IMG/VR virus record: IMGVR_UViG_3300032083_002724 | Location: 1-64,000 of that record | DNA from: a virus | Length of the DNA: 64,000 nucleotides | Reading direction: 5' to 3' (one strand) | In this document: positions 404 through 59,100 of the stretch, one piece after another | Layout of the letters: the number at the start of each line of letters is the position of its first letter | Position numbering within the stretch: the first letter of the stretch is position 1 | Notes under the pieces: model-generated | What the model was told of the DNA's origin: nothing | Databases searched by the model: none | What the model saw: the letters and a program-made list of their open reading frames with translations, nothing else | Position numbers and translations under genes: made by a program

Positions 404-868
404 ATGCCAGATTACAGTAAAACACGCATACAGTTTCGCAGAGGGACTGCCGCAGAATTTGCTTCTGCTAATCCAGTGCTAGCGTCTGGAGAACCAGCAT
501 TTGCAGTAAATACTAATACCTTAAAAATAGGCGATGGAGAAACTGCTTATTCTAGTCTTTCTGCTGTTGCTGGAGGTGGAGGTGGGATTAGCAATGTTGT
601 AGAAGATACAACTCCACAGCTTGGTGGTAATTTAGATCTTAATTCTAAAGACATAACCGGAGAAGGTGATATACTAAGCACTGGAAGTGGTAACTTCGAT
701 CAAGGAGTTTTTGTAAGCGGTGATCCTGCTGTAAAATCTAGTGCATCGTCTGCGCTTGCTTCTGGTAGTTTGAATGTTAGTGGTGTAACTAATATGGTAA
801 TCACAGATTTAGCTGGCTACTCAGGCATAGCAGTGCCAGATGACAATACAATATATTTTATAGTCTAA
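404..868 (+). CDS. tail fibre protein with Mtd-like N-terminal domain
   Basis: This is a 154-residue protein. Residues about 7-55 (RIQFRRGTAAEF ... LKIGDGETAY) match the short N-terminal domain of phage tropism determinants and tail fibres, normally written RIQLRRDTA ... KIGDGTTAW. A Gly5 linker follows, then a 'DTTPQLGGNLDLNSKDITG' stretch typical of phage fibre shafts. The C-terminus NTIYFIV echoes the preceding gene. The start is ATG at 404 with GGAG about seven bases upstream. The N-terminal domain usually docks a fibre to the particle. I infer a virion role in host contact or fibre attachment. The receptor-binding part may be very short or lie in a partner protein. Confidence 0.75.
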   Translation: MPDYSKTRIQFRRGTAAEFASANPVLASGEPAFAVNTNTLKIGDGETAYSSLSAVAGGGGGISNVVEDTTPQLGGNLDLNSKDITGEGDILSTGSGNFDQGVFVSGDPAVKSSASSALASGSLNVSGVTNMVITDLAGYSGIAVPDDNTIYFIV

Positions 869-878
869 GGGTATAAAA

Positions 879-998
879 ATGTCAAATCAACAAGAAGGCA
901 GGAAAGGGTTGTCAAACATAGCTCTTTACTATGTTGGTGATAGAAAAATAAATCAGATTAAAAAGGGAACTAAAGTAATATACCCATCAGAAGGTTAA
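879..998 (+). CDS. mini-protein A, 39 residues, YVG...KGTKVIYP motif
   Basis: A 39-residue ORF (ATG 879, TAA 996-998) fills most of the space after the fibre gene, with AAGGG upstream. Its core, IALYYVGDRKINQIKKGTKV, is shared with the next mini-ORF. The pattern 'YVG-x-I-x-KI-x-KG-x-KVIYP' resembles C-terminal motifs of phage tail or receptor-binding proteins (Y-LG-x-I-x-IYKGs-x-V-YP). I infer a small virion accessory. It is below usual gene-caller limits, but conserved paralogy with its neighbour and tight packing argue that it is real. Confidence 0.6.
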   Translation: MSNQQEGRKGLSNIALYYVGDRKINQIKKGTKVIYPSEG

Positions 999-1002
999 GA
1001 AT

Positions 1003-1107
1003 ATGGCTGGAAAGGTAAGCTTATCCGATATAGCTTCATATTATGTAGGCAATGTCGCAATAGCTAAAATTTACAAAGGCACTAAAGTAATATATCCAGA
1101 ATCGTAA
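1003..1107 (+). CDS. mini-protein B, 34 residues, paralogue of mini-protein A
   Basis: ATG 1003 to TAA 1105-1107, starting four bases after mini-protein A ends. The product shares 'IA-x-YYVG', 'I-x-KI-x-KGTKVIYP' with the preceding gene, so the two are tandem duplicates that have diverged. AAGG lies about eight bases before the start. Function unknown; the motif and the position beside fibre genes suggest a small virion component. Confidence 0.6.
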   Translation: MAGKVSLSDIASYYVGNVAIAKIYKGTKVIYPES

Positions 1108-1127
1108 CTTAGTAAAGGAGAATAATA

Positions 1128-1726: not shown

Positions 1727-1736
1727 GATTGGAGAT

Positions 1737-2490: not shown

Positions 2491-2494
2491 GTAT

Positions 2495-3118: not shown

Positions 3119-3138
3119 AGAAAACACGGAGCTAGTAA

Positions 3139-11198: not shown

Positions 11199-12668
11199 AT
11201 GGAAAAGTTGTTAGATGTTGGTGCAGAACGAGCAGTGCTAGCTGGATTACTCCAGCATGGCATAGATGGATATGTTGGAATATCTGATTTGATTACTTCT
11301 GAAACGTTTGGGAATACGAATAATCAAATTATATACAACTGTATAGAAAAGATTATTGCTGATGATAAATCTGTGGACATAGCATCTATATTATCTGCCG
11401 CAGAGCAGCTTAATCATTCAGACATTATTAATACTAAGCAAGAATTGAAATATATAAAATCTCTGATGGTCTTTCCAGTAAACAGAGACAATATTTTTAA
11501 TTTTGCAATACAGATGAAAAAGTTTGAATTTGCTAGAAAAATTAAGAAACTTACTAGTAAAGTTCACAAAGATATGGATGATGTCACTGGTTCTGAAACA
11601 ATCAATGAAATCATACAGAAATTAGAAGATCCTGTAACAGACTTTCTAAGGGAAGATGATGGCGGTGAGAATCCAGAAAAAATTGGCTCAGGAGCAGAAG
11701 ATTATGTCAAATTTCTCGAAGAAAATAAATGCGATATCATTGGTATACCCACGGGATTCGCTAGATATGACGAAGCCATTGGGGGTGGTCTTAGACGAAA
11801 ATGCGTTGACCTTGTATCTGCAAGACCAAAAGTTGGTAAGTCAGTATTCGCTGATAATGTTGCCCTTAACGTATCTTCACTAGACATTCCAGTTTTAGTT
11901 TTAGATACTGAGATGTCCAAGGAAGATCATCTGAATAGATTAATTGCAAACATAAGCGGCGTTCCCATAAACGAAGTAGCAACTGGAAAATTTGTAGAAG
12001 ATCCCTACAAGCAGCAAAAGGTTCAAGAAGCGGTACAAAAATTATCTGACATACCATATAGTTATGTAAGTGTCGCTGGCAAACCATTTGAACAAATTCT
12101 AAATATTATTAAAAGGTGGATAGTACAAGAAGTAAAAACTGATGATTCTGGAAAAACAAATGATTGCGTGGTCATCTATGACTATCTTAAGCTGATGTCA
12201 TCTTCATCTATTACAAACAATATTCAAGAATATCAAGCATTAGGATTCCAGATTACCTCTCTTCATAATTTATGCGTTAAGCTAGACATACCATGTCTAT
12301 CTTTCGTGCAATTAAATAGAGATGGAATCACAAAAGAAAGCACGGACGCTGTAAGTGGTTCTGACCGCTTGATATGGCTGTGTACATCTTTTAGTATATT
12401 CAAAACAAAATCTACAGAAGAATTAGCTGAAGATGGACCAAACGCAGGAAACAGAAAGCTTGTACCCATTGTTTCTCGTCATGGTGCTGGTATGGATGAT
12501 GGAGATTACATCAATATGCAGATGCAAGGCGCACACGCAAAACTGATAGAGCTACAATCCAGAAATGAATTTAAGAATCAACCAGTAGGCGATACTGGGC
12601 TAATCAACAATGACTCTATGAAAAAACTAGCAAATGAACTTAAAACAGATCAAGAAGATGCTGAATGA
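11199..12668 (+). CDS. replicative DNA helicase, DnaB type
   Basis: A hexameric 5'-3' helicase that unwinds the fork and contacts primase. The 489 residues hold a DnaB N-terminal helical domain (about 1-110), a linker, then the RecA-type motor: ARPKVGKS at 208-215 (Walker A), a conserved LDTEMS, a Walker B-like CVVIYDYLKLM, and FVQLNRDG. It lies directly upstream of the primase gene, whose start overlaps its 3' end, as in many phage replication modules. Confidence 0.93.
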   Translation: MEKLLDVGAERAVLAGLLQHGIDGYVGISDLITSETFGNTNNQIIYNCIEKIIADDKSVDIASILSAAEQLNHSDIINTKQELKYIKSLMVFPVNRDNIFNFAIQMKKFEFARKIKKLTSKVHKDMDDVTGSETINEIIQKLEDPVTDFLREDDGGENPEKIGSGAEDYVKFLEENKCDIIGIPTGFARYDEAIGGGLRRKCVDLVSARPKVGKSVFADNVALNVSSLDIPVLVLDTEMSKEDHLNRLIANISGVPINEVATGKFVEDPYKQQKVQEAVQKLSDIPYSYVSVAGKPFEQILNIIKRWIVQEVKTDDSGKTNDCVVIYDYLKLMSSSSITNNIQEYQALGFQITSLHNLCVKLDIPCLSFVQLNRDGITKESTDAVSGSDRLIWLCTSFSIFKTKSTEELAEDGPNAGNRKLVPIVSRHGAGMDDGDYINMQMQGAHAKLIELQSRNEFKNQPVGDTGLINNDSMKKLANELKTDQEDAE

Positions 12669-13656
12669 AAATGCACATCTAGTTTTTGCAGAACTAGGCA
12701 TGAAGTGTGAAACATTCTCAGACAATATATACTCTACGTGTCCAGTGCATGAGGGCAGCGATAATCCAAGAGCTTTCTCATTTTCTCCACAAAAAGGTAT
12801 ATGGAAGTGTTGGACGAGGGACTGTCAATCTGAATGTGGAAACGATCTGTTTGGTCTTATCGCTGGAGCTTTATCTGCACAGGAAGGCAGAACAGTTGAA
12901 TTTAAAGAAGCTTTAGCTTGGGCGTGTAAGATTTTAAATGTAAAACAAACGTATACCCGTGGAACTCCTAGTCCAGTAGAAGAATTAGAAGATCCGTTCC
13001 AACAAATGATAAATATTATGAGTACCATGCCCGCTCCACATGAACATAAAACAGTGGAGATGGATGTAAATATCGAGATACCATCACAGTATTTTGTGGA
13101 GAGAAACTATAATAAAAGAACTATGAAACACTTTGGGATTGGCGATTGTTATTCTAAGTGCAAATTAAATGAAAGGGCGATAATTCCTATACATGACGAA
13201 AGTGGAAAACGATTAATTGGATTGATAGGAAGATCTACTAGAGACTACAGAATACCCAAATTTTTATTTTATCCTACTGGTTTTGACAAAAGATACTGTT
13301 TATACAACTACCACAGGGCAATCAAAAAAGCAATAGAAACCTCTTGCCTCTATATAGTTGAAGGACAAGGCGATGTCTGGAAACTATACGAAGCGGGAGT
13401 TCACAATGCTGTGAGCATCTTTGGTAAAACTGTATCAAGTCAACAACAACAAAAACTAATGAGTATACCAGTAACACATTTAATTATACTTACTGACAAT
13501 GATCAAGCAGGAAGAGAGTCTAAGGTTCAAATAAAAAGGGATCTTGGAAGAATGTTCAAGCTTACTTTTCCAAAGCTAGCTCATAAAGATGTTGGAGATA
13601 TGAAGGTAAAAGATATTAAATTAAACATTTTATCTAATCTAAAGGGTACTTACTAA
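12658..13656 (+). CDS. DNA primase with zinc-binding and TOPRIM domains
   Basis: Makes RNA primers at the fork. I prefer ATG 12658 (332 aa); ATG 12634 is an in-frame alternative eight codons earlier, and neither has a strong ribosome site. A zinc-binding module lies at the N-terminus (CPVHEGSDNPRAF ... WKCWTRDC). The TOPRIM domain is in the second half: VEGQGD supplies the Glu and LTDNDQAG the D-x-D metal ligands. It is shorter than DnaG and lacks a helicase domain, fitting the separate DnaB gene just upstream. Confidence 0.88.
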   Translation: MLNENAHLVFAELGMKCETFSDNIYSTCPVHEGSDNPRAFSFSPQKGIWKCWTRDCQSECGNDLFGLIAGALSAQEGRTVEFKEALAWACKILNVKQTYTRGTPSPVEELEDPFQQMINIMSTMPAPHEHKTVEMDVNIEIPSQYFVERNYNKRTMKHFGIGDCYSKCKLNERAIIPIHDESGKRLIGLIGRSTRDYRIPKFLFYPTGFDKRYCLYNYHRAIKKAIETSCLYIVEGQGDVWKLYEAGVHNAVSIFGKTVSSQQQQKLMSIPVTHLIILTDNDQAGRESKVQIKRDLGRMFKLTFPKLAHKDVGDMKVKDIKLNILSNLKGTY

Positions 13657-27798: not shown

Positions 27799-28506
27799 AT
27801 GAAAGGCATAATATTAGCTGGTGGAACAGGTAGCCGTTTGTACCCACTAACAAAAGTGACTAATAAACACCTTTTGCCCATAGGCTCATTCCCTATGATT
27901 CATTATCCCATAATTAGCATGACAAATGCAGGAATTAAAGATATTATGATTATCAGTGGAACTGGTCATGTTGGCAATATGATTAATTTTTTAGGAAGTG
28001 GAAGTGGATACGACTGTGATTTTACTTTTAAGGTGCAAGATAGACCAGATGGAATAGCTGGTGCATTAAAGCTTTGCAAAAATTTTGTTGGGAACGATAG
28101 TTGTCTTGTCATACTTGGTGACAATATTTTTGAAAGAGATCTATCTAAGGATGTAAAAGAGTTTAAATCTGACATGAAATTATTTTTCAAACAAGTACCA
28201 GATCCAGAAAGATTTGGCGTAGCAGTTTTGAACAAAGAAGACAAATTAGTTAAGATTGAAGAAAAGCCTAAAAAACCAAAAAGTAATCTTGCATGTATGG
28301 GCGTATACATGTATAATAGTATGGTGTTTGATTGTCTAAATAAAATTAAAAAATCACCTAGAGGTGAATATGAAATTACAACAGTTAATAATTGTATGTT
28401 GAGAAAATACGAATCAGAATTTAGTATTATAGATGGTTTTTGCGTGGATGCAGGAACTATGGAGTCTTATCACGGAACAAGCAGGTTAATGTATGAGCAA
28501 GAATAA
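27799..28506 (+). CDS. rmlA: glucose-1-phosphate thymidylyltransferase-like nucleotidyltransferase
   Basis: Makes dTDP-glucose from glucose-1-phosphate and dTTP, the first committed step to dTDP-6-deoxysugars. The 235 residues start with GIILAGGTGSRLYPLT, followed by KHLLPIGSFPMIHYPI and ILGDNIFERDL, all RmlA blocks; PERFGVAVL and IEEKPKKPKS are also kept. It is shorter than bacterial RmlA (about 290) and lacks the C-terminal dimer/allosteric segment, so feedback control may differ. It overlaps rmlB by 14 bases. Confidence 0.92.
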   Translation: MKGIILAGGTGSRLYPLTKVTNKHLLPIGSFPMIHYPIISMTNAGIKDIMIISGTGHVGNMINFLGSGSGYDCDFTFKVQDRPDGIAGALKLCKNFVGNDSCLVILGDNIFERDLSKDVKEFKSDMKLFFKQVPDPERFGVAVLNKEDKLVKIEEKPKKPKSNLACMGVYMYNSMVFDCLNKIKKSPRGEYEITTVNNCMLRKYESEFSIIDGFCVDAGTMESYHGTSRLMYEQE

Positions 28507-29449
28507 TGTACTGATAACGGGCTGTGCTGGTTTTATAGGTAGTCACTATCTAGACCTACTATTACAGAACGGTCACAAAGTTATAGGCGTGGACAGCATG
28601 ACCTATGCCAGTAAACTTTCTAACTTTGAACATCACATGACTGATAAAAACTTTGAATTTCACAAAGCAGATATTTGTAGAACAATGTTCATGATTGCTT
28701 TATGTGAAATACATGAGATTGATTATATAATAAATTTTGCCGCTGAAACACATGTGGATAATTCCATATTAGGTGGTGATTGTTTTATTAACTCCAATGT
28801 CTCAGGCGTTAAATCCTTGATGGAAGTTTGCAAACGATTAGAGATTCCCATATGTCACATATCTACAGATGAAGTATACGGACCAATAAAACAAGGATCG
28901 TTTAGTGAATATGCTAATTTATCTCCAAAAAATTATTATTCAGCTACCAAAGCTGCTGCTGAACATATAGTGTCTGCTTATGCAAACACATTTAAAGTGC
29001 CTTACACTATGGTAAGAATGAGCAATAATTACGGCCCAAGACAACATGACGAAAAGTTTTTGCCAACAATACTAAGATCTATAAAGCAAGGCACTAAGAT
29101 ACCATTATATGGAGATGGAAAACAAGTAAGAGATTGGATTTTCGTAAAAGATTCTGTGAATATAATATACAAAATATTAGAAGAGTATGACAGATTTGAA
29201 GAAATACCATTTAGTAATCAGGTTTATAATGTAAGTTTACGTGATGAAAAACAAAACAAAGATGTCATACAAAGTGTTCTTTCACTTATGAATCTAGAGT
29301 GGGACGATCATGTGCGATACGTGGAAGATAGACTTGGACATGATGTGCGATACAGTATTCACAATGAGAAGATAGGTGATATAATTGAAAGCATTGATAC
29401 TACTAGTTTTGAAAATGGACTAAGAAGGACAATCCAATACTATGAATAA
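28493..29449 (+). CDS. rmlB: dTDP-glucose 4,6-dehydratase
   Basis: Converts dTDP-glucose to dTDP-4-keto-6-deoxyglucose. 318 residues: NVLITGCAGFIGSHY (NAD loop), VDSMTYASKLSNF, INFAAETHVDNSI, STDEVYGP with the catalytic D-E pair, YYSATKAAAEH (Y-x3-K), NNYGPRQ and YGDGKQVRDWI are all typical. Its product feeds FdtA, the RmlC-like cupin, the RmlD-like reductase and the C-methyltransferase upstream. Confidence 0.95.
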   Translation: MSKNNVLITGCAGFIGSHYLDLLLQNGHKVIGVDSMTYASKLSNFEHHMTDKNFEFHKADICRTMFMIALCEIHEIDYIINFAAETHVDNSILGGDCFINSNVSGVKSLMEVCKRLEIPICHISTDEVYGPIKQGSFSEYANLSPKNYYSATKAAAEHIVSAYANTFKVPYTMVRMSNNYGPRQHDEKFLPTILRSIKQGTKIPLYGDGKQVRDWIFVKDSVNIIYKILEEYDRFEEIPFSNQVYNVSLRDEKQNKDVIQSVLSLMNLEWDDHVRYVEDRLGHDVRYSIHNEKIGDIIESIDTTSFENGLRRTIQYYE

Positions 29450-30125
29450 ATTAGCAGTTATTCCCGCTAGAGCAGGATCTACTAGACTTAAAAATAAGAA
29501 TACTTACCCACTGTTGGGCGAACCTCTGATAAGGTGGGTGACAAAATCAGTAATTTGTTCTAAACGTTTTGATAAAGTCTTAATATCTACAGATAGTGAT
29601 GAAATATTCAATTGTGTAGAAGATTTAGAAGTAGAAAGACATGAAAGACCTGAAGAACATGCAACAACAAAATCAACAGTCTTAGACGCGATGATAGATT
29701 TAATGGAAAACTACGAAACGCATGATGTATTTTCTTACTTTTTACCAACGTGTCCATTTATCACTTCTGAACAGGTGGCTTCTGGCGTTGACATGTTAGA
29801 AAAATATAGGTGCGATTCAGTTATTAGTATGACAGAAATGCAAGACACTGTACAATTAGCCTGCCTAATGAGTCAAGATAGGGTGCTTCCAGTTTTTGAC
29901 AATCTTGAAGCTGGTCTTACTAACAGTAAATTTATTAAAAAATACTACAAACCTTCAGGCGCATTTTACATGGGATTCTGGGACTCAATACTAAAATATA
30001 GAAACTTTTTTGTAGGAGATACAAGAGGTGTACTTATACCAACAGATAATTCAGTTGATATAAATAATATTGAAGACATACATTACGCTGAAACGATAGG
30101 AGCAAAGAATGGTTATTTATGTTGA
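29442..30125 (+). CDS. CMP-sugar (ulosonic/nonulosonic acid) synthetase
   Basis: Activates an acid sugar with CTP, releasing pyrophosphate. The 227 residues begin VIPARAGSTRLKNKN, a blend of the NeuA/PseF (RGGSKGIKNKN) and KdsB (RYASTRLPGKP) signatures. LISTDSDEIFN and FLPTCPFITSE follow the same order as in NeuA-type enzymes. With KdsA and the small HAD protein it would complete a CMP-Kdo-like route. Substrate choice (Kdo, sialic, pseudaminic or legionaminic acid) cannot be decided by eye. Confidence 0.88.
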   Translation: MNKLAVIPARAGSTRLKNKNTYPLLGEPLIRWVTKSVICSKRFDKVLISTDSDEIFNCVEDLEVERHERPEEHATTKSTVLDAMIDLMENYETHDVFSYFLPTCPFITSEQVASGVDMLEKYRCDSVISMTEMQDTVQLACLMSQDRVLPVFDNLEAGLTNSKFIKKYYKPSGAFYMGFWDSILKYRNFFVGDTRGVLIPTDNSVDINNIEDIHYAETIGAKNGYLC

Positions 30126-30414
30126 TATAGATAATACGATTTGTAAAACTAATAGTTCTGCTGAGTATGATAAAGCAGTGCCAATTAATTCAAGAATTGA
30201 AAAAATCAACAAGCTTTATGACGCTGGACACACTATAATATATTGGACAGCTAGAGGAACTAAAACAGGAAAGAATTGGAAAGACTTAACAGTGAGACAA
30301 TTTAGAGAATGGGGCGTAAGGTGTCACGAATTACATTTTAAAAAGCCAGTGTACGATCTGTTTATTGATGATAAAAATATAGAGTCTAATACTTATTTTG
30401 AAGACGTAGATTGA
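30109..30414 (+). CDS. small HAD-family phosphatase
   Basis: 101 residues. YVDIDNTICKT is the HAD nucleophile motif D-x-D-[NG]-T, IIYWTARGT carries the motif II Thr, and VYDLFIDDKNI gives the motif IV acidic pair. Minimal HAD proteins of this size occur in capsule and LPS gene clusters. It overlaps the CMP-sugar synthetase by 17 bases, so it may remove the phosphate from a Kdo-8-P-type acid before CMP activation, as KdsC does. The role is inferred; the fold is well supported. Confidence 0.82.
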   Translation: MVIYVDIDNTICKTNSSAEYDKAVPINSRIEKINKLYDAGHTIIYWTARGTKTGKNWKDLTVRQFREWGVRCHELHFKKPVYDLFIDDKNIESNTYFEDVD

Positions 30415-30426
30415 TAGGAGAAAACA

Positions 30427-31992
30427 TTGAACTGGTTTCCATTGAAGAACTTTACGCATTATAGTTTACTAAGAGGATTCTCTAAGCCACACGAACTTGC
30501 AAAGATTTGTGCTGACAATGATTATCCAGCATGTGGTATTACAGACTACAAATCTATATCAGGCGCTGTGTCTTTTCACCAAGCTTGTAAAAAAGTTGGA
30601 ATCAAGCCAATCATAGGATGCTCATTTGATAACACGACTGTATACGCAAAAAACAAAGATGGATGGCACGATCTAATACAAATGGTATCAATGACTGACG
30701 AAAATGGCAACATGCCAACAGATATTGCTAAAGATATTATTAGTAGAAATAACCTAGTAGCACTACCAAAATCTAAAGATAAAATAAAACCTTCGTATTA
30801 TGTAAAAAAAGAACAAGCTGGATTACATAGAGTTTTATTATGTTCTGCCCTAAAAACAACACTGCCCAAAATCCAAACTCAAATACGTAAAAAAGAATTA
30901 GACAAAGATATACTAGAGTACTTCAATAAAGATGATAAATGTGTCACTGAAGGTGAGGTGACTAAAGAATTAGAATACATATACAATTCTTGTGAAGAAT
31001 ACGATATACTAAGCCCACCAATGTTGCCTACCTTTGTTTGTCCTAATGGTATGTCACAAGAAGAATATCTAACAAATATGGCTAGAAAGGGATATACTGA
31101 ATTATTAAAACCAAAGGTTGGTAAAGACAAAGAAAAGCAAAAAGTTTATGGTGACAGATTTCAGAAAGAGTTAGAGGTAATCAGAAATGCAGACCTGTTT
31201 GGCTACTTCTTGATTGTTCAAGATATTATCAGACATATAGAAAAAGATATGGGTTGTTTAGCTGGACCGGGGAGAGGATCTGCTGCTGGTTGTCTGATAT
31301 CATATCTTATTGGAATCACTAAGATTGATCCAGTAGAACATGATTTGCTATTTGAAAGATTTTATAATGCGGGTCGTAATGCTGGTGGTAACGTTTCTTT
31401 GCCCGATATTGACATGGACGTTCCGGGCAAGAGAAGAGATGATGTCATAGACTATCTCAAGGAAACATATGGTAAAGAACATGTTAGTCAAATGATTACG
31501 TTTGGAAGACTACAGGGACGTAGTGCTATTAAAGAAGTTTTAAGAATTAATGATGCTTGTTCCTTTAGCGAAATGAACACTATAACTAAAAGTGTTCCAA
31601 ATGAAGCAGAAATATCTGACCAACTGGTAGAAATGGACGATGAAGATAGATCAATTATTAAATGGTCTCTCATGAATCGTGCAGACGAACTAAGAGATTT
31701 TTGTCATATAACAGACGATGGAAAGCTTGAAGGTGACTACGCAGAGTATTTCCAGCAAGCAATAGAAATAGAGGGAACTTTTAAAACGCAGGGTAAACAT
31801 GCTGCTGGTGTTGTCATATCAAAAGACAAGCTGAAGAATGTTTGCCCAATGGTAGAACAGAAAGGATCTATTGAAAAGATAGCAGGTTTAGAAATGTCTG
31901 ATCTAGAAGCGCTAGGTCATGTAAAATTTGACGTTCTAGGAATCAATCTTCTAGATAAACTCATGAAAATTAAGGAATTAACTAATGGCTAA
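30427..31992 (+). CDS. dnaE: DNA polymerase III alpha, N-terminal half (PHP-like, palm, thumb), TTG start
   Basis: 521 residues of a family C replicative polymerase. The start is TTG 30427, with AGGAG about six bases before. Residues 1-70 are a reduced PHP domain whose metal His residues are mostly gone (FTHYSLL, TDYKS). GPGRGSAAG lies at 280-288. PDIDMD at 326-331 holds two catalytic Asp (327, 329), and KFDVLG holds the third (502). The frame stops 19 residues later, at what should be the palm/fingers boundary. The fingers and later domains are encoded by 32993-34552. Both halves together (about 1040 aa) approach a full alpha subunit. Proofreading must come in trans, since PHP looks inactive. 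Confidence 0.93.
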   Translation: MNWFPLKNFTHYSLLRGFSKPHELAKICADNDYPACGITDYKSISGAVSFHQACKKVGIKPIIGCSFDNTTVYAKNKDGWHDLIQMVSMTDENGNMPTDIAKDIISRNNLVALPKSKDKIKPSYYVKKEQAGLHRVLLCSALKTTLPKIQTQIRKKELDKDILEYFNKDDKCVTEGEVTKELEYIYNSCEEYDILSPPMLPTFVCPNGMSQEEYLTNMARKGYTELLKPKVGKDKEKQKVYGDRFQKELEVIRNADLFGYFLIVQDIIRHIEKDMGCLAGPGRGSAAGCLISYLIGITKIDPVEHDLLFERFYNAGRNAGGNVSLPDIDMDVPGKRRDDVIDYLKETYGKEHVSQMITFGRLQGRSAIKEVLRINDACSFSEMNTITKSVPNEAEISDQLVEMDDEDRSIIKWSLMNRADELRDFCHITDDGKLEGDYAEYFQQAIEIEGTFKTQGKHAAGVVISKDKLKNVCPMVEQKGSIEKIAGLEMSDLEALGHVKFDVLGINLLDKLMKIKELTNG

Positions 31993-32665
31993 TAGAGACT
32001 TTATTGTATTTGACTTTGAAACAGGAAGTCGTAATCCTCATAAAACACAACCCACGCAAATTGCTGCTTTGGCTTTAGATGGTCGTAATCTTGCTATGAA
32101 AGGTACATTCAACAGTGAAATTAGACCTATCTTAAACGACGAAGCCGCTATTGCTGCTGGGTTAGATCCAATTGAAGACGGAGCATTAAAAGTTACAGGA
32201 AAAAATAGAAAAGATCTAGCGAAGGCTCCAACTCTAAAATCAGTTTGGAAAAAGTTTTGCACATTTGTAGATAAGTATAATTGGAAAAAAGATCCATTTT
32301 ATAATCCTATACCTGTTGGATATAATATTATAGGATTTGACATGGTTATAATCAACAGGTTATGTAAAGAGTATGGACCATTTGACGATGCTAGACAACA
32401 GCAAAAAATATTTAGCAGAGTTCACAAATGTGACGTTATGGATAACATGCATATGTGGACAGAGGGTGATCCTAGCATCAGATCTATCAGCATGGATACG
32501 TTGCGTGAACGCATGGGACTGTCGAAAGAAAATGCACATGATGCGTTGCAAGATGTTAAGGATACGACTAATATATTTATAAAGCTACTAAAGACTCATC
32601 GCGCAGTTTACCAAGAAATACAACTAGACAAGGCTTTTGCTAATGGAAACCTCTACGTTAAGTAA
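31985..32665 (+). CDS. DEDDh 3'-5' exonuclease, DnaQ-like
   Basis: 226 residues of the RNase H-like proofreading exonuclease fold. The catalytic set is visible: D-x-E in FDFETGS, the Exo II Asp in NIIGFD, and H-x4-D in AHDALQDV (DEDDh class). It starts inside the end of the N-terminal polymerase half (overlap of 8 bases), so it is probably translated together with it. Lying between the two polymerase halves, it is the obvious candidate for the epsilon-like proofreading subunit. Length is close to E. coli epsilon (about 243). Confidence 0.9.
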   Translation: MANRDFIVFDFETGSRNPHKTQPTQIAALALDGRNLAMKGTFNSEIRPILNDEAAIAAGLDPIEDGALKVTGKNRKDLAKAPTLKSVWKKFCTFVDKYNWKKDPFYNPIPVGYNIIGFDMVIINRLCKEYGPFDDARQQQKIFSRVHKCDVMDNMHMWTEGDPSIRSISMDTLRERMGLSKENAHDALQDVKDTTNIFIKLLKTHRAVYQEIQLDKAFANGNLYVK

Positions 32666-32993
32666 AGTATGCAAGACCTGTGGTATAAAAAAGTCAAACG
32701 ATGAGTTTGTAAAGGCTGATGGTCAACATCGCTCAACGAGAAACAGATGCAAAGATTGTCATAAAGCACAAGCAAACATACGAAAGAAGTTAAGAAAAGA
32801 AAACCCACCGCCAAAAAGTGGGAAATGTCCAATATGTCAAAAGCATACAGAGGATTGGGTTTTAGATCATTGCCATGTTAATGAAAGTTTTAGAGGATAT
32901 ATCTGTAGATACTGTAACTCTGGGATAGGATTGTTAGGCGACGATGTAGACGGTGTGGTCAACGCATTGAATTATTTAATTGAAAGAAGATAA
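32643..32993 (+). CDS. HNH endonuclease, recombination endonuclease VII type
   Basis: I start at ATG 32643 (AAGG upstream), inside the exonuclease 3' end; TTG 32637 is in frame. 116 residues: KVCKTCGIKK and RCKDCHK form one zinc-type pair, then CPICQKH ... WVLDHCHVNESFRGYICRYCNSGIG is the endonuclease VII-type HNH core (DHCH, then C-x2-CN). Such genes are common as mobile elements in phages. Its place exactly in the polymerase break suggests that it, or a relative, took part in splitting dnaE. Its stop overlaps the next start (TAATG). Confidence 0.88.
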   Translation: METSTLSKVCKTCGIKKSNDEFVKADGQHRSTRNRCKDCHKAQANIRKKLRKENPPPKSGKCPICQKHTEDWVLDHCHVNESFRGYICRYCNSGIGLLGDDVDGVVNALNYLIERR

Positions 32994-34552
32994 TGAAATA
33001 CAACGACGAAAAAACTTGGCAGTTGTTTGAGGAAGGCAAAACAAAAGGTGTCTTCCAGTTAGAGAGTAATCTTGGTAAGTCTTGGTCTAAGAAATTAGCA
33101 CCAAGTAATATAGAAGAATTGTCAGCACTTATTGCGATTATTCGTCCGGGCTGTTTAAAAGCATATGTTGATGGAAAATCTATGAGCCAACATTTTATTG
33201 ATCGTAAGCATGGTCGTGAAGAAGTCACGTACCTACATGAATCTCTAGAAGAAATTTTAGCACCAACGTATGGCGTTCTTGTGTATCAAGAGCAGTCCAT
33301 GCGTATTGCGCAAAAAATAGCAGGATTTGATCTACAAGAAGCAGATGAGCTTCGTAAAGCCATTGGAAAGAAAAAGGCTGACCTAATGGCTAAAGTTAAA
33401 AAGAAATTTATAGCTGGTGCAAAAAAGGTTGGTATAGTCAACAAGGAAGAAGCAGAAGAAATATTTGGATGGATTCAAGCATCTTCTAGGTACGCATTTA
33501 ACAAATCACATAGTATATCATATGCTGTTTGTTCATATTGGAGCGCGTATGAGAAAGCTCATCATCCAGAAGAATTTTTCTTATCATATTTGTACTATGC
33601 AAATGAAAAACAAGACCCACATCAAGAAGTATATGAATTATTTTCTGAGGCAAAGTTATTCGATATTCAAGCAAGAACACCAAGTCTTGCAAATTTTGAT
33701 ACAAAGTTTAATGCTAAAAAGGGTAAAATATATTTTGGTATAAAGGATATTAAATCACTTACAGGTAAAACTGGAGACAGAGTTGTTGACTCAGTAAAAG
33801 AAGTAGAAGAAGAACTAGGAAAACCAATGACTAAGTTCACATGGGTTGAAATACTCTTGTTCTTTGCTCCCAAAATTACTTCAACAGCTTTTAAAGCGCT
33901 TGCTTCTATAGGATTTTTTAGGGACTTTAAGGATAAAATATCTAGAAATAAAGCTCTATACGACTATGATATATACAGATTACTAACCAAGGCAGAGCAA
34001 AAATGGATACAAACAAATTACCAAACAAAGAAATGGAAAACTTTTATAGCCTGCTTAGAGGATTTAGCACCAACAAAAAAGAATGGTGGTGGAACCCACA
34101 AAATCGAAAGATCGCAAGCTGTTGAGAATGAGATACAGTTATTACTAGACCCTCCATACGCCTTAGATGACGACCCAAACTGGATTATAGATCAAGAAAC
34201 TAGATTTCTAGGATGCCCAGTATCAATGACTAAGGTAGAGGTTGCAGATACTTCAGCAGCTAATACCACTTGCAAAGATATCATAAATGGTAAGAAAGGC
34301 AAAGATATATGTGTAGTGGGCAACATTCAAAGAATGGCAGACTATACTATCAGCAAGGGTGACTCAAAGGGGAAGCTCATGTCATTTCTAACCATAGAGG
34401 ATGACACATGCATTTTAGATAGTGTTGTAGTATTTCCAAAAATTAGACAGAAATATAAATATATATTATACGAAGGTAATAATCTGATATTTTGCGGCTC
34501 TGTTGCCAAACACGAAACATCTCTAATAGTCGATAAAATTTATGAAATTTAA
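32993..34552 (+). CDS. dnaE: DNA polymerase III alpha, C-terminal half (fingers to OB fold)
   Basis: 519 residues. GVFQLES, IAIIRPG, FIDRKHG, APTYGVLVYQEQSM, GKKKADLMAKVKKKF and FNKSHSISYAV follow the alpha-subunit fingers in correct order. A C-terminal strand set (VVGNIQRM ... FLTIEDDTCILDSVVVFP) fits the OB fold of the family. No catalytic Asp lies here, so it cannot polymerise alone. It has its own ATG (TAATG with the HNH gene). The conserved block KFD-x-LG of the first half and VFQLES here are separated by about the same few dozen residues as in intact enzymes, with no conserved block missing. Confidence 0.92.
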   Translation: MKYNDEKTWQLFEEGKTKGVFQLESNLGKSWSKKLAPSNIEELSALIAIIRPGCLKAYVDGKSMSQHFIDRKHGREEVTYLHESLEEILAPTYGVLVYQEQSMRIAQKIAGFDLQEADELRKAIGKKKADLMAKVKKKFIAGAKKVGIVNKEEAEEIFGWIQASSRYAFNKSHSISYAVCSYWSAYEKAHHPEEFFLSYLYYANEKQDPHQEVYELFSEAKLFDIQARTPSLANFDTKFNAKKGKIYFGIKDIKSLTGKTGDRVVDSVKEVEEELGKPMTKFTWVEILLFFAPKITSTAFKALASIGFFRDFKDKISRNKALYDYDIYRLLTKAEQKWIQTNYQTKKWKTFIACLEDLAPTKKNGGGTHKIERSQAVENEIQLLLDPPYALDDDPNWIIDQETRFLGCPVSMTKVEVADTSAANTTCKDIINGKKGKDICVVGNIQRMADYTISKGDSKGKLMSFLTIEDDTCILDSVVVFPKIRQKYKYILYEGNNLIFCGSVAKHETSLIVDKIYEI

Positions 34553-34581
34553 TTGGTTTTTTTAACTGTACAAGCTAATAT
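34553..34581 (+). promoter_or_regulatory. candidate sigma70-type promoter before ssb
   Basis: In the 47-base gap before the SSB gene TTGGTT (34553-34558) and TAATAT (34576-34581) are spaced by exactly 17 bases, fitting a host sigma70-like promoter. AGGAGAG follows immediately before the ATG at 34600, so the 5' leader would be only about ten bases. This is one of the few clear gaps on the plus strand. Prediction only. Confidence 0.4.
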
Positions 34582-34599
34582 ACTAAGATAGGAGAGAAT

Positions 34600-34917
34600 A
34601 TGAACAATTGTTGTTTTACTGGATACCTTGTAGAAAACCCTAGAACGTCAGTGGTCGGAGATGTCGTACTAGCTGAGTTTACTGTGGTCGTATATAATTA
34701 TAGAAGAACAAAAAGCACTGGAGAAAAGAGTAGGATACCCACTTACTTAAATTGCGAAGCTTGGCACACAGGCGCTGAAACTATCGAAAGATTTGCAACA
34801 GAAGGAACAAAAATTACAATAAACGCTTCAGCAAAAAATAGATCTAAAGATGATGAGTCTGTTGTTTTCAGAATAAACGAATTTGACATATGCAGTCAAG
34901 ACTATAACGAAGAATAG
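34600..34917 (+). CDS. ssb: single-stranded DNA-binding protein
   Basis: 105 residues. CCFTGYLVENPRTS begins an SSB OB fold, followed by LAEFTVVVYNYRR, YLNCEAWHTGAETIERFATEGTKI and a C-terminal strand, all in the order of bacterial and phage SSB. The acidic tail is short (DYNEE) rather than the usual long disordered end. It covers exposed DNA during replication beside the split polymerase. GGAGAG precedes the start and a candidate promoter lies before it. Confidence 0.9.
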   Translation: MNNCCFTGYLVENPRTSVVGDVVLAEFTVVVYNYRRTKSTGEKSRIPTYLNCEAWHTGAETIERFATEGTKITINASAKNRSKDDESVVFRINEFDICSQDYNEE

Positions 34918-34923
34918 GACAAG

Positions 34924-36570
34924 ATGAGAAAGAAAAGAATATTATTCTGCACAGAGGCGACATTTCTAAACACTGGCTATGCCACCTACACTAGAGAAAT
35001 GCTTAAGTACTTACACAGTACAGATAAATATGAGTTGGCAGAATTAGCAGCTTACGGAGAACCAAATGATCAAAGAGCAAAGGGCATACCTTGGAAATTT
35101 TATGGAATTATGCCAACAAATAATGCAGAGACAAATGAATACAATGCTAAACCCACTAACCAGTTTGGTGAATTTAGATTTGAAGAAATATGTTTAGATT
35201 TTAAACCAGATATTGTCTGTGACATCAGGGACTTTTGGATGCTTGACTTTGCAGAAAGGTCTCCATACCGCAAGTTTTTTAAATGGTGTATCATGCCAAC
35301 AGTTGATGCAAGACCACAGGCTAGACAGTGGATTGCAACATACTCTTCAGCAGACGCTTGTTTAACATATTCCGATTGGGCTGGGGATGTACTTAAACAA
35401 CAAGCTGGAGATCATATCAATTATTTAGGTTCAGCCCCACCTTCTGCACATCCAGCATATGAACCTAAAGACAAAATTGCACTACGGAAAGCTTTTGGTA
35501 TAAATGAAAATGCTAAAATCATTGGCACAGTTATGCGCAATCAACGTAGAAAATTATACCCAGATTTATTTAAAGCATTTAGATTACTATTAGACAGTGT
35601 AGATAATCCAGAAGAATATTTCTTATATTGTCATACAAGCTATCCAGATCTTGGGTGGGAACTACCAGAATTGATACAAGAAAACAACATCGCCTCTCAC
35701 GTTTTATTTACATATGTTTGTAGAGAAACGCAACAGCCTTTTGCATCTTTGTTTAGAGGTGCTTCTGCTCAATCTCCCTACACTGGTAAATGGGGATCAA
35801 CACTATCTAATGTGAGACAAGGCTTAAGTTATGAACATTTAGCAAGTGTAATTAATTTATTTGATTTATATGTTCAGTATGCAAATTGTGAAGGTTTTGG
35901 ATTACCGCAAGTAGAAGCAGCAGCATGTGCAGTGCCAGTAATGGGTACTGATTACTCTGCTATGGAAAGTGTTCTCAGGCAACTGGATGGTACGCCCATT
36001 AAACCCAAAGCGCTCTATAAAGAGCTAGAAACTGGTTGTCTGAGAGCCGTTCCAGATAATGAACTGGCAGCAAAATTGTTTAAAGAATTTTTTGAATTAC
36101 CAAAAACTGTTAGATCTAAAAAAGGTTTTGATACTAGACAGAAATTTTTAGATCTTTTTCAATGGGATAAATCTGGCAAAGTGTGGGAAAGCTATTTTGA
36201 TAGTGTAGAAATTAGACCTGATACTGAGACTTGGCTATCGCCAGTTGACATACAAAATCCAGAACCAAAACCAACTATATCACCAGAAACTAAGCACAAT
36301 GATTTAGCACAATGGCTAATTGTAAATGTTCTAAAAGAACCAGATAAAATTGGAAAGTATTTAGAATCTAGATTAACAAGAGATTTAATGTATGAATGTA
36401 TGTCTGCATCAACAGCTGGTATGTACTTTAATGAATTTTCTGCTGCTTTTGACGGAAAGAATCAAAGACATCCATTTAATTTTGACATTGCTTATAATGA
36501 GATGGCTAACATACGTTTAAGAAAAAACAAATGGGAACAAAAAAGAGCGGAGGTATTTGGGATAGAATGA
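34924..36570 (+). CDS. family 4-like glycosyltransferase, large (548 aa)
   Basis: A GT-B-type transferase. ILFCTEATFLNTGYATYTREML opens the N-terminal Rossmann half; IIGTVMRNQRRKLYPDLFKAF and NCEGFGLPQVEAAACAVPVMGTDYSAM give the nucleotide-sugar half with the E-x7-E motif. At 548 residues it has about 150 more than a typical GT4, including a helical C-terminal tail of unknown role. It starts six bases after ssb. Acceptor unknown. Confidence 0.85.
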   Translation: MRKKRILFCTEATFLNTGYATYTREMLKYLHSTDKYELAELAAYGEPNDQRAKGIPWKFYGIMPTNNAETNEYNAKPTNQFGEFRFEEICLDFKPDIVCDIRDFWMLDFAERSPYRKFFKWCIMPTVDARPQARQWIATYSSADACLTYSDWAGDVLKQQAGDHINYLGSAPPSAHPAYEPKDKIALRKAFGINENAKIIGTVMRNQRRKLYPDLFKAFRLLLDSVDNPEEYFLYCHTSYPDLGWELPELIQENNIASHVLFTYVCRETQQPFASLFRGASAQSPYTGKWGSTLSNVRQGLSYEHLASVINLFDLYVQYANCEGFGLPQVEAAACAVPVMGTDYSAMESVLRQLDGTPIKPKALYKELETGCLRAVPDNELAAKLFKEFFELPKTVRSKKGFDTRQKFLDLFQWDKSGKVWESYFDSVEIRPDTETWLSPVDIQNPEPKPTISPETKHNDLAQWLIVNVLKEPDKIGKYLESRLTRDLMYECMSASTAGMYFNEFSAAFDGKNQRHPFNFDIAYNEMANIRLRKNKWEQKRAEVFGIE

Positions 36571-53186: not shown

Positions 53187-56100
53187 TTATGGACTTGGCG
53201 TTGTCGTAACACCACTAGAATATAAATTAAAACCAGATCCAGAGAATACTCCAGAAACCATATCTGGAATGTTGCTAGCATATAGTCCCAATCCACTACT
53301 TAATACACGCCCTTCAGCTACTTCTGCGAATAAATTCATGGAACCACTAGCTACTGGAGGTCTTCCACTGGTGTATAGAGTGAAGTTTCTATTATCAATT
53401 GGAACTCCTCTGAACCTTTGTCCTGTTATTTCTTTTATAAATGGTCTGTGGACAACAAAGCCTCTTTGTGAAGGATCTTGACCAGATACTTCTAAGAATA
53501 TCTCTCCCTCATTATTTGTATACAAAACTCCACTTGTTTCATGCTCTGTATTTAATCCACCGCTATTGTGAACTTCAAGATATATAAAATCACTAACGTT
53601 AGATGTTTGAGATCTATCTATGCCAGAATCACTATATATTCTAGCTTGTAAGAATATTCCGGTGTTGGCAGTTGTCTGGTCTGGGACTCTCAATATACCA
53701 TCACTAACATACGCAGCGCCAGCGTCTAGCCCCATCGTAAATGTTGTATGATTACCACTAGTCGCAAACTTATGATGAGGAGATCCTACAGCAAATATGT
53801 AATCACTATCTGATGTCTTATCTCTAGAGACAGACAAAGCTTTACCAAAGTAATCATTTTCAGATCCAGATGCAGATACTGTCTTTTGCAATCTAGAATT
53901 GTAACCCTGTGGTACGAGTTTCTGTACCAGCTGCCAATCTTTAGTTCTGCTATCCCAATCACTTACTGCGTCTTCATAGACAAAAACTGCTCCATTATTA
54001 AGAACAGCTGTTACTCCACTGCCACCTAGAGCATACTCATGCCTTACGCCCGACTCACCCATGTCATATATATTTCTTTCAGGTATATCAATAGAAGCAG
54101 AGAACGCTTTATGATTAAATGCTCCACTTGCTTCACCTCCCCTAGAGAATATCATTTCCTCAAAATTAGGGAAGTCATGCCCCGGCGCTCCAACAGCAAG
54201 TACATCATCACGGAAATCAACTGAATAACCAAATTGATCAGTTACTCTAGTAAGATGATCTAGCTCTCCAGAAGTGTAAGCGTGATTACCCAAATGCAAA
54301 GAACCAGATGCAAGCTCTACATCAAATATATCTTGACCAACATTAATACTCGTAGGTCTAAACTTACGAACTACGTTCCAACTCTTACTACTTCCACCAA
54401 CTACACCGTAATCACTCAAGGTTCTAGTTCCACGCTCGTACAAGAATGCAGAACCAGCACCACCTCCATAGCTAGTAATCGTTCCAGATATTGCTTCGTA
54501 TCTAGGCGTGTTACCAGAAACAGCAGTCCAAGTAGTTGGAGTTTCTGAAGAGAAAGCAGCAAAAGGTGAACCAACAACAAGTTTATTATCACGTATAGCT
54601 ACAGAGTATCCAAACAAATCACCCGGATATCCAGAAGGTAATTTGTCAAAATCAAGATAATCATAACCTTTATCTTTGAGTAGTTGTGGCATCTGCCCAT
54701 AGAATGCATCAGCATACATAGTGCCATCTATAATTCCACTAAACTTAGCAGTTCCCCCGTAGATATATTGTTCTTGATCAAATGATGCAATTTGTGCTTT
54801 TTTAAGAGCAGGTACTTGTTCGGGGCGAGGAGGAAGATCTGTTGGCAATATATACAATGGACTTTCACCAATATCAATATCTAAAATAGTAATAACATTT
54901 CCATTTCTTTCTGCTGCTGGATCAACATCATCCATGAAATTATTCATCTGTAATCCTGAAGTTGGAGTAGTTCCATCTCCAGCGAACCTAATCATTAACC
55001 CAGAATTACCAGTGGAGTTAAAGAGTTTTTGAGGACTAGATTGAACAGGGGCTTTGATTCTTGATATCACATTGTAGGAATTGCCCTGATTTTCATCTGG
55101 GAAAACAGTGTCTGGATATAAACTATTTAGAAAATCAGCAACAGTGTCATGTATAACTCCATTTTCATTAGCAATCCTACTACCCTGAATTAGACTAGCA
55201 TCAGTCAAAACAGTAATCCTAGACTTATCAACGCCAACATCAAAAGGTCTTTGGTGATATACTTCTTGGGCTGCTACAACTGGACCGTCATCAATTAAAC
55301 CATCAGGATTTCTTTCAATAAATATTCCAGAACACTCAGTAGATGGACAGTATTTCATGCTATTTGTGCTGACAGGTCTTGATTCAGTGACTGTCGTAAC
55401 TACTTCTGGAGTTCCCGGTATAATAATTTCTCTTTCACCAACCTTAACTGGAACTGGTGTAAGTTTTACATCAGAAGGTAGTAAAGCTCCAGAAATTCCA
55501 ACAATACGTGTTGTAGATGGATTGAAGCTTAATGATTGAGCCTGTTCTAAAGTATAGTTAATCTTATTTGCATCCATGTAAATGGTAATTTCATTAACAT
55601 CAATAGCAGTAGTACCATCTCCACTTGGGATATAAATATTTATTGATTCATGATTTACTGACCCATCAAACTGAAACTCTCTTTGTCTTGGAGTAAATGC
55701 GTTAATATCATACTTTTGCTGCTCAGATCTAGTCTTATGTATACGAGCGCCAATAAAGTCATTAGCAACAGTTCTAAATTCATTGTGTTGAGGATTGCCC
55801 GGAATATGAATAACGTCTTTTATTTCTACATTTGAACCACTTGCTTGTGCGCCATATCTTCTATCGCAATTACTAATTAAGAAATTGGTTTGTAATTTTT
55901 CATTAAAGTTTGCAGATATAGTATCAACGAATACTCTATAACCAGAACCAGCTAGAACAGGGAATGTTACGGAGGCAACACCTGTCTTCAAATATGGCAC
56001 ATCAATTATTTCAATGAAGTCATCAGTTATATTATGTATATCATTACTGTTTCTATTTTGTGAACTAAGTAAAGCAGTGCCTCCAGATCTTATATCAACG

Positions 56101-59100
56101 CAAACTAAAGAACCTAAAGGAATATCTCGAATCTCAGCAATAGTATTATTGCTAATCCTTCCATATGCATTTTTTAATTCAATAGAACCTTTCAAATCTG
56201 AGTATGCAAACATTTCAGTAGACGGAGTGGTGCTTCCCTGTAGCGTAACTCCATTTGGAAGTCTAAAGTCTGTTACATCTGCGTACTTACCTCTAGCTTC
56301 TAATAATAAAGGTTTAATATTTATACCTAAACTATTTGCAATTTTCTCAACAGCTCGTATCCTATCAATACTAACTGATGATTCATTGCTACTACTACGA
56401 CCTAAAGTAATATATAATTTTTTATTATTTGTTGAAAGCCATTCTTTAATAAATCCCATCTCTCTGTTAAACACTGTATCACTTATGGGATCACCATTAT
56501 CGTCTAGCAGTGTCGGATTAGCAATCCAAGCAGCTTGATAATGATCGTTGTCTACATAAAATTTAAATGTTGTAATAGTATCTAATTTTCCGTCAGAAGG
56601 TATAGAGGCTTCAAGTAAAGCATCTAAGATAGACTCTTCTCTAGCTTCAAAGAATGAGTCAGTTCCTGTCCAATCAGCAATGAAAGCGAAGTCTTTTAGT
56701 CTCTCTGTTTCACTTCCAACCTCGTAAAGAAGATTGTCATAGAATAAAACATGTCTATCGTCACGACCACTAAATATAAATGATCTTAGCTCTGTCTCAG
56801 TAGTGCCAATTAATATTACCTCTGACGAGCTTTCTGCATATTTTTCTTTAGCAGTTATTACCAAAGGCTGGATATTAACAGATGACCTCTTCTGTTCTTT
56901 TTCTGGATTGGATTCCCCTCTTAGAATATTAGTTTTATTAAACGATTGATCTGGAGTAGTTATAAATTTACTAGGACTTGAAGTAGGCTGTATATTTAAA
57001 TTAATACGCTTGTAATTATTTGAGTCAGCTGACCAGTAAAAAGCAGCCTCTTCAAAGGGATCATCTCCAAACACATCTTCAGATATAATTTCAGTACCCA
57101 TTATATCTTCAATAATTATTTCATCTGGTGTAGCTGGTGTCACCTTCTCAAAACTAACATGTTCTGAAGCCACCATCAGAGGAATTGGCTCATAATTTAT
57201 TAAAGTAGGAAATACTGGACAATCACCTTCACCAAGGCAACATCCATAATCAAGTTCATTAACAGTTCCAAACGCAAAAGCTAGATTAACTGGATATATG
57301 ATAACTCCAAGACCTCTTGGGTCTTCACAAAAGTCATTCCATTCTGCTCTAAGGTCTCCACCGTGTTGAGGTATCATATTACATCTACTGTTTAGATCTG
57401 CATAACTTGGAAAATCTCCTATTTCTGGAATGCCAAGAATATTCTTTCTTTCTTCACAAGTATATGCTTCGTATATACCGGGGTAATTTAGTTTTATATC
57501 ACCCACGCCTGATGCGTAAAGATCAGTACTAAGAACATAAGTTGATGTAGTATTTCTAGGAACAAAGGATGGTATTACATTTGGTTCATTTTCATTGAAT
57601 TCTTGGTCATCAAGTCTATTCGACCCAATCATAGATTCAAACGAATTTCTAGCAGGAACAATCGTCATTCTAGAATCTAATCGTTGAAGAATCTTATTTA
57701 TTATTGCAGTGCCTTCTGCGTAAATCCCATTACCTTCAAATCTAGGATCATCAGCGACAAGAACTAAATGTCTATCACCAAGACCCAACCAATCTTGTAT
57801 GTTGTCTAAAACTTCATCACTTAGTGCATCTATTTCTGGAGTTATTATAAATGCTAATCCTGCGTCATTAGGAATGTCAACTTCACTCTCTGGCAGTCTA
57901 GTAAATGTTTTGGAATTTGAAGCAAAAATCTGCGACATGTGATCAAACAGATTAGCACCTTGTGATTCAATATTTACAGATCTATGTTTGTTACCAAACA
58001 AAGTAAACTCTACAGCTTTATTGTTGTGCGGATAGTATCTTCTAGATTCAAAAACAGTTACAGAACCAGCATTAACACTATTGTACCATTGACTTTTAAT
58101 ATGTGTTACGTGATTGTAGTTAGTTTGTGGCCTCCACCATAGATCAATTAATCTAAGTGGATCGCCAGTACCTATGTCGTCATGTAAAACGCTATCAGTT
58201 GGCGCACCAGCTGCTACTATACTACCATCCTCGTTAACTGCAACACTGTAGCCTAGCCTTGGAGTAGGAGCAAACTTATTAAACAACCAGCTCCATTCAC
58301 CTCCCGGTTTTATTTCTGAATACTTATATTCTTTTATTAAATCATAACAATGTATATTATTATCTCTACGTAACTGCAATTTACCACTTGGTGTTAATTC
58401 ATCATACACAGCATTGTCAGCAACACTATTACTACCTGCCTCGCTTTGAAGACTTTGCCACCTTCTAAGCATGGTTCTCAAGTATCCCGTTGGATTGTCA
58501 TTAGACCCAACATCAGAAAGCCAACTACCCACATAAGGTCTTGGATCTACGTAATTTTTTTGCCATATTTGAACTGCTTCATTAATATAAGGAGAGCCAA
58601 TAGCAATAACATTTGCATCATCACTAATTGCAACAGCGTGTCCAAATCTATCTACCGTATTATTATTTAATGTTGTTGGAGAATAAATCTCATCTATGAT
58701 ATTCCATCCAGAAACTCCATCATTATTTTCTTCTTCAAAAACAACAACTACACCACCACTAGGTGGAGCTACATTGAATGTAGCAGCATCAACGTCGAAG
58801 TTACCTATAAAGTTAGCAAACAATTCAAAATCTCTAGAATTTTTCATTCTATCTAAATCTAAAGTTTGACGCAACAATTCATTGGAAAGATCTATCCACC
58901 TTTCTCCTCCAAGCTCTCTATTTGTAAACTCAGTTGTAGCTCCAGATCTAGGAGTTCCACCTATGTCTGTCACACCACTAGCAAGAGAGTATTCTGCATA
59001 CCAATCTTTAAATCTATCGAATGAAGCACCTAGTTTTCCTGCTCCCATAGAAAAGCTATCATCAATAATAGCAGAAACAATTACAGGTATATTATTGTTT

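Follow-up and report, generated by a model that had tools for sequence, protein, structure and literature searches.

Can the palm and the fingers of a replicative DNA polymerase be made as separate proteins? In bacteria, the replicase is usually DnaE, the alpha subunit of DNA polymerase III, and DnaE is as a rule one chain. The question is raised by a locus in IMG/VR record IMGVR_UViG_3300032083_002724, a tailed-phage record of 108.5 kb from an uncultivated lineage. Positions 1 to 64,000 of that record, here called the window (64 kb), encode a DnaE-like polymerase as two genes, with two further genes between them. The features of the locus are as follows.

30427..31992, plus strand: N-terminal half of DnaE (N-half), 521 amino acids, with a degenerate PHP domain, palm and thumb; TTG start with GGAG upstream; an open reading frame (ORF) matching PF02811 and PF07733.
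31402..31419, plus strand: catalytic motif PDIDMD, residues 326-331 of the N-half, holding D327 and D329.
31921..31932, plus strand: motif VKFD, residues 499-502 of the N-half, holding the third catalytic Asp, D502.
31985..32665, plus strand: gene for a DEDDh 3'-5' exonuclease, 226 amino acids; PF00929, phrog_192 (DNA polymerase exonuclease subunit).
32637..32993, plus strand: HNH / endonuclease VII-like ORF, 118 amino acids; PF02945, phrog_2633.
32993..34552, plus strand: C-terminal half of DnaE (C-half), 519 amino acids, from the fingers to the C-terminal OB fold; ATG start; PF17657.

The initial annotation of this DNA had read the two frames as one family C polymerase made as two separate proteins. 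A survey of relatives bears this out. The gene is split in all 252 loci that carry both halves, the catalytic residues are identical in 157 of 157 clusters, and neither an intein or intron at the break nor a fused relative was found in the lineage. We therefore hold it highly probable that the replicase of this lineage is encoded by a family C gene that underwent a single, early break in the palm/fingers linker, and that its two chains bind non-covalently to form one active site, whose activity is predicted.

The starting point is the identity of the two halves. Both match the same PHROGs family, phrog_405, over consecutive stretches (244-614 for the N-half and 627-1055 for the C-half, of 1190). 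In Pfam, the N-half matches PHP (PF02811) and DNA_pol3_alpha (PF07733, profile positions 1-260 of 260), and the C-half matches DNA_pol3_finger (PF17657, profile positions 26-165 of 166). The AlphaFold2 model of the N-half, with a predicted local distance difference test score (pLDDT) of 87.5, aligns to residues 4..574 of E. coli DnaE in 2HNH (Z 25.2, root-mean-square deviation (rmsd) 3.7, 478 residues aligned). That of the C-half (pLDDT 86.8) aligns to residues 589..910 of 2HNH (Z 16.8, rmsd 4.2, 314 aligned) and to 589..1073 of 5FKU_A (Z 18.8, rmsd 9.5, 447 aligned). Alignment to full-length DnaE, which the initial annotation had proposed as a check, agrees with its assignments: PHP, palm and thumb with three catalytic Asp in the first frame, and a second frame that opens with the fingers.

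Because the models of the two halves match DnaE residues 4-574 and 589-1073, they place the cut at about E. coli residues 575-588, that is, in the palm/fingers linker and near the boundary to which it had been assigned. We take the nominal border in E. coli DnaE to be at about residue 560, and D327 and D329 of the N-half to be, presumably, E. coli D401 and D403.

What was lost at the cut? Uncut linkers, counted from the K of K(FDxLG) to GxFQLES, have 44-54 residues, with a median of 50, in the 75 sequences that hold both flanking motifs. In split loci, the N-half runs on for 22-27 residues past that K (10-90%; range 20-46) in the 247 of 252 loci with a motif match, the other five being left out of the count. 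The remnants in the window have 22 and 18 residues, 40 together. Since tail and head lengths come near the length of an uncut linker, only variable linker is missing, and no conserved block is absent, as had been claimed. The order PHP, palm with three catalytic Asp, fingers and OB fold is present across the two chains.

In a deeper clade, several C-halves (those of L069, L072, L074, L187 and L188) begin with an extension of 25-35 residues in which a CGC motif is followed by another Cys; this may be a small metal site. The C-half of the window has no such extension.

Each half has its own start codon, TTG for the N-half and ATG for the C-half. With the starts as chosen, the N-half gene overlaps the exonuclease gene by 8 nucleotides, the exonuclease gene overlaps the HNH ORF by 29, and the HNH ORF overlaps the C-half gene by 1 (TAATG). 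This is as expected if translation is coupled, and is the kind of coupling that the initial annotation had described.

How widely is this arrangement shared? Four scans of IMG/VR (the best 80 of 89, the best 80 of at least 565, the best 80 of at least 494, and 50 distinct loci of 51) gave 265 loci which, with the window's own (L129 in the survey), made 266 loci to be classed, many contigs being sampled more than once. Both halves are carried by 252, always in the order N-half, exonuclease, C-half (252 of 252). Their junctions comprise 196 different sequences, and grouping by C-half DNA at 95% identity gives 177 clusters. The usual form of a family C enzyme, with palm and fingers in one polypeptide, is found in none of the 252, although intact versions among related phages were just what the initial annotation had suggested looking for.

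The remaining 14 loci comprise 10 with the N-half only and four with the C-half only. In the 10, the sequence stops inside the N-half, at most 0.7 kb beyond it, or inside the HNH gene (L101). Among the four, L181 and L185 have an N-half about 6.1 kb further upstream, and L044 and L286 start at the edge of the sequence. A scan of GTDB (best 80 of 542) gave 77 fused genes, two split ones on phage-like contigs from metagenome-assembled genomes (MAGs), and one with a single in-frame TAA (L247, also a MAG contig), which is probably an error. The two split MAG contigs share the N-half, exonuclease, C-half arrangement.

The spacing of the three genes varies. The N-half can lie up to 6.1 kb from the exonuclease, and the exonuclease up to 4 kb from the C-half. 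In L069, the genes that separate the latter two encode ThyX, an FkbM-type methyltransferase and a DUF1559 protein. This variable spacing, together with the intervening genes, means that N-half, exonuclease and C-half are separate gene units.

DUF1559 prepilin-like proteins are typical of Planctomycetes. The gene for one occupies L069:3491-4474 (PF07596) and L072:3704-4777 (recognised by similar sequence only), in both cases between exonuclease and C-half, and may hint at the host of this sub-lineage.

Residue conservation was assessed in 157 of the 177 clusters, those without three clean, long frames being dropped. In the N-half, D327, D329 and D502 are identical in 157 of 157. In the C-half the same holds for R121, K122, K126, N170 and H173, with R166 identical in 154 and K457 in 155. 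Among clusters, the halves diverge by up to 65-66% at the amino acid level. Over 23 pairs, the median ratio of nonsynonymous to synonymous substitution rates (dN/dS) is 0.052 for the N-half (22 values), 0.023 for the exonuclease (18) and 0.040 for the C-half (20). Both halves are under strong purifying selection. In keeping with a working replicase, neither a PolA (PF00476) nor a PolB (PF00136) domain was found in the phage's own record or in 15 of 15 long related records, possibly fragments, each of which has one C-half.

As to what lies between the halves, the initial annotation was right about an exonuclease gene, in that the PF00929 match is confirmed, but it missed a second gene, the HNH ORF at 32637-32993. 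The exonuclease has the DEDDh active site, with D10, E12, D119, H185 and D190 identical in all 157 clusters examined. Residues K7 and F9 of the PHP domain in the window are His in 66 and 62 of the 157 clusters. The window clade has lost those His, together with about 100 residues of PHP that the deeper clade retains. This loss would suit a separate proofreading exonuclease.

From what is observed in the sequences, their order, conservation and selection, and the folds of the halves, we infer a complex, its polymerase activity and the partner of the exonuclease. Here, the proposal is that a DnaE-type gene received a single early cut in the palm/fingers linker. The N-half, exonuclease and C-half would then be made from neighbouring, often overlapping genes. 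The two chains would most likely bind without a covalent bond, like the split gp43 of T4-like phages, and rebuild one active site. To this site the N chain would supply the catalytic Asp residues, and the C chain the fingers, which bind deoxynucleoside triphosphate and template, and the OB fold. The exonuclease would most likely proofread, perhaps bound to the PHP domain in the way that epsilon is bound to DnaE. The HNH gene of the window would have entered later, at a junction already there.

Several points weigh against this proposal. The N-half and exonuclease genes are more than 300 nucleotides apart in 40 of 177 clusters, and the exonuclease and C-half genes in 49 of 177; tight coupling is thus not universal. 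The exonuclease finds its matches among solved structures in PolC-type, ExoI and exodeoxyribonuclease III entries, and none is epsilon. Residues 338-408 of the C-half model are hardly covered by structural matches, and the halves were modelled as single chains only. The distance matrices of N-half and C-half correlate at 0.941, which is not above the value for C-half and exonuclease (0.94) and gives no evidence for contact. The records come without a completeness estimate, and with the search confined to families A (PF00476) and B (PF00136) another polymerase is possible. Last, a phage half could pair with parts of the host DnaE.

This last point opens the alternative that survives best, which is that only one half matters, or that each half works with host DnaE instead of with the other half. 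The phage may, of course, rely on host factors, as its record lacks a beta-clamp domain PF02768 (other clamp families were not searched). Against this, purifying selection is similarly strong on both halves, and their complementary catalytic residues are kept in 157 of 157 clusters. Moreover, neither half is seen alone where the sequence suffices, since the 14 exceptions are sequence edges or, in L181 and L185, have the N-half about 6.1 kb upstream. This alternative is very unlikely.

Could the halves instead be rejoined after they are made, by protein trans-splicing, by RNA splicing of an intron that bears the exonuclease, or by frameshifting? The lineage does contain split intein-like pairs, as the N-half of L046 and L139 is cut after GPGRG. 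At the palm/fingers break, however, the tail of 20-46 residues past the K leaves no room for an intein half, and no C-half head in 247 loci has an [HS]N[CST] intein edge; the initial annotation, which saw no Cys/Asn edge, was correct on this point. Rfam gave no match in window positions 30000-35000 at E-values up to 1, and none at the gathering score in L344, L139, L046 and L351. An RNA intron was rejected on these grounds. Further, at least one gene and sometimes several lie in the gap at the break, and from locus to locus the size of the gap differs by kilobases, so that neither a frameshift nor a single intron fits. Rejoining has, in our estimate, only a very slim chance of being right.

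The additional cuts in some relatives deserve description. In L046:2346-4311 and L139:1576-4340, the N-half is cut a second time, after GPGRG, by the split intein-like pair. Weak Hint matches (E 7e-6 to 7e-4, all below curated cut-offs) lie at the ends of the first pieces; the second pieces have no Hint match and, by eye, an intein-like edge of the form GLGVHN followed by S. Between the pieces in L139 lies an endonuclease-like ORF (2675-3550) with a borderline DUF7487 match and a sub-threshold TnsA-like one. Should the pair be a split intein, L046 and L139 would need three genes for their polymerase, and splicing would close one of the two cuts. In L344:3108-6101, and at the same coordinates in L345, L347 and L353, the N-half is broken near the PDID motif, and a LAGLIDADG ORF separates the parts; these four are probably one population. 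The N-half is interrupted by frame or stop breaks in L351 and L110, and the exonuclease frame is broken in L302. The breaks in the L344 group and in these three loci may be real or may be errors. Beside the polymerase in L344, a PD-(D/E)XK nuclease gene (1123-3111) contains an intein-like insert that includes a LAGLIDADG domain.

The HNH gene suggests another explanation, in which a homing gene recently split the polymerase of the window phage. Its ORF is a firm match to PF02945 (E 1.1e-12, 48.2 bits against a cut-off of 23.6), it sits exactly at the junction, and such insertions occur in polymerase and ribonucleotide reductase genes of phages 25 and Aeh1 (PMC2988022). Relatives without room for an HNH gene are, however, split too. 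Their gap between exonuclease and C-half is at most 130 nucleotides, too small for HNH, in 127 of 177 clusters, and at most 300 in 128 of 177. In 10 of 10 hand-chosen loci without HNH, the reading frame of the C-half can be followed upstream until it overlaps the last part of the exonuclease gene, which is read in a different frame, and this overlap offers a possible start. The first codons of the window HNH ORF resemble this start, and in the window the C-half has a new ATG, which overlaps the stop codon of HNH. Because HNH-less relatives are split and the start stretch is shared, the HNH insertion probably followed the split, and the HNH gene was rejected as its cause. That it made the cut is therefore barely credible; it is a probable late mobile insertion at a pre-existing junction, with a putative homing activity judged from its sequence.

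The longest ORF was also taken from each gap of 300-1400 nucleotides, giving 83 ORFs. Of these, 24 match the window HNH protein, and all 24 lie between exonuclease and C-half. Among the others, inspection by eye suggests methyltransferases, uracil-glycosylase-like proteins and more proteins of HNH type. After the split, both junctions seem to have served repeatedly as insertion sites. The first cut was possibly made by the exonuclease gene or by a mobile gene since lost.

The weakest rival is an artefact of assembly or sequencing, which the initial annotation had named as something that would overturn the split. Apparent single-stop breaks are seen in some contigs (L110, and L247 with its one in-frame TAA), but the identical arrangement in 252 concordant loci, with 196 distinct junctions and from many metagenomes, would need one common error everywhere. 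This rival was rejected and has a negligible chance.

Returning to a two-chain polymerase cut once and early, a bolder version can be offered, although we regard it as rather doubtful. Here, the two-chain replicase would have been the sole replicative polymerase since before the deepest sampled split in the lineage. The exonuclease would be a structural third subunit, holding palm and fingers together during co-translational assembly. Some members would be undergoing further cutting, to three polymerase chains, with one break closed by a split intein and the other bridged by free binding.

Why does this matter? A cut through the active-site region, retained over so great a divergence, suggests that palm and fingers can meet without a covalent link. 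Nature thus offers a trial of how much division a replicase tolerates before it fails, and the natural halves could be used to test finger closing and the coupling of proofreading. Further, the series from no insert, to HNH insert, to split intein, to three pieces bears on the question of how a phage survives when mobile genes interrupt its essential genes.

Other replication genes are found in the window.

11199..12668, plus strand: DnaB-like helicase, phrog_19.
12634..13656, plus strand: DNA primase, phrog_47.
34600..34917, plus strand: single-strand DNA-binding protein, PF00436, next after the C-half.

Among the matches listed, the last of these also follows the C-half in many relatives. 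The record further encodes a UvsX-like protein, ribonucleotide reductase, PhoH, terminase, tape measure and baseplate-type proteins. Sugar-nucleotide genes (PF00483, PF16363, PF02348) lie directly upstream of the polymerase genes, at window positions 27799-30125, and glycosyltransferase- and methyltransferase-like ORFs, recognised by eye, flank the region on either side. A minus-strand ORF at 53187-63689 encodes 3500 amino acids and matches FG-GAP repeats (PF14312); its product may be a protein of the virion or of the tail fibres.

Where does the lineage stand among other phages? Named phage records that match the C-half number 1211, and those that match the N-half 1305, every one less than 60% identical, with the window's nearest records possibly excluded. 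In a tree of 56 rows, several of them long and with 13 of 53 inner branches open, the 27 split rows form one clade with a support of 100 in the Shimodaira-Hasegawa-like approximate likelihood ratio test (SH-aLRT). Two results do not suit a simple story. The neighbour of the split clade, with support 94, is phage MA9V-3, whose gene is fused and whose branch is long. Further, Rossellomorea phage phiT1, which has its own cut, falls outside the lineage in that tree, beside phage Sundance (support 80), but an approximately unbiased (AU) test with 37 rows did not reject phiT1 and the lineage as one clade (p 0.685), and the constrained tree scored better. Their palm/fingers cuts may have had one origin or two, and independent origins are not claimed.

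A sample of 21 named phage records, hand-picked from hit lists and not random, contains 14 with palm, fingers and any PHP found in one frame, and seven with a divided gene. The breaks fall in the palm/fingers linker in phiT1, between PHP and palm in AnnaSerena and Weasels2, before the palm core in BpsS-140, near a catalytic motif in LC76P1, and within the fingers in Dulem virus 36. Of four faecal phage records, three are fused and one is in two overlapping frames. The differing break sites imply that phage DnaE has been cut several times. In Bacillus phage G, the seventh divided case, DnaE is spread over at least three frames in 10 kb (JN638751.1 239329-249363), and among the entries listed only gp339 is noted as DNA polymerase III-like.

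How does this compare with known systems? Cyanobacterial DnaE also comes from two genes, but these are cut elsewhere and rejoined by a split intein, whereas the present lineage shows no intein edge in 247 loci. Fractured genes are reportedly the subject of Dassa et al. 2009, and the group 2.2 jumbo phages are said to have been studied by Iyer et al. 2021. In those jumbo phages, a split minimal DNA polymerase III alpha is proposed to reconstitute one enzyme, alongside a family B polymerase (PMC7824862). Thus, the family C catalytic core is two proteins there as well, but it is minimal and its genes are far apart. In the present lineage, the halves keep PHP and OB and are adjacent or nearby, with the exonuclease gene between them, and no PF00136 was found. 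Phage phiT1 (PV767480, gp20/gp19/gp18) is broken in the same palm/fingers linker, into pieces of 573 and 469 amino acids; it differs in that an ORF of 49 amino acids lies between, and no homologue of the lineage exonuclease was found in its record. Microbacterium cluster EF phages are noted in PMC7302621 to have two alpha genes, but in AnnaSerena (gp56/gp57) the cut separates PHP from palm, so that palm and fingers remain in one chain.

Outside family C, Aeromonas phages 25 and 44RR, which are T4-like, likewise have a two-chain replicative polymerase, gp43A/gp43B. In phage 25 a mobile gene occupies the split, and the two proteins co-purify and are active in polymerisation (PMC2988022), which makes them the best functional precedent for the proposed assembly. 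These polymerases belong to family B, with another fold, and no intervening exonuclease gene is mentioned there. In phage MIJ3, a family B polymerase is divided by a putative split intein (PMC6892783).

No description of the present lineage was found in the PubMed Central (PMC) literature, where some searches were narrow and most subscription papers fall outside coverage, and passages of PMC8008677, PMC7412058 and PMC13313380 mention no split alpha subunit. The initial annotation had called a two-chain family C polymerase unusual. The precedents (PMC7824862, PMC7302621 and phiT1) temper that claim: the split phage replicase as a kind, split DNA polymerase III alpha included, is already known. 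What is new is this form of it, a near full-length family C enzyme with no detectable intein, cut between palm and fingers around an exonuclease gene throughout a lineage.

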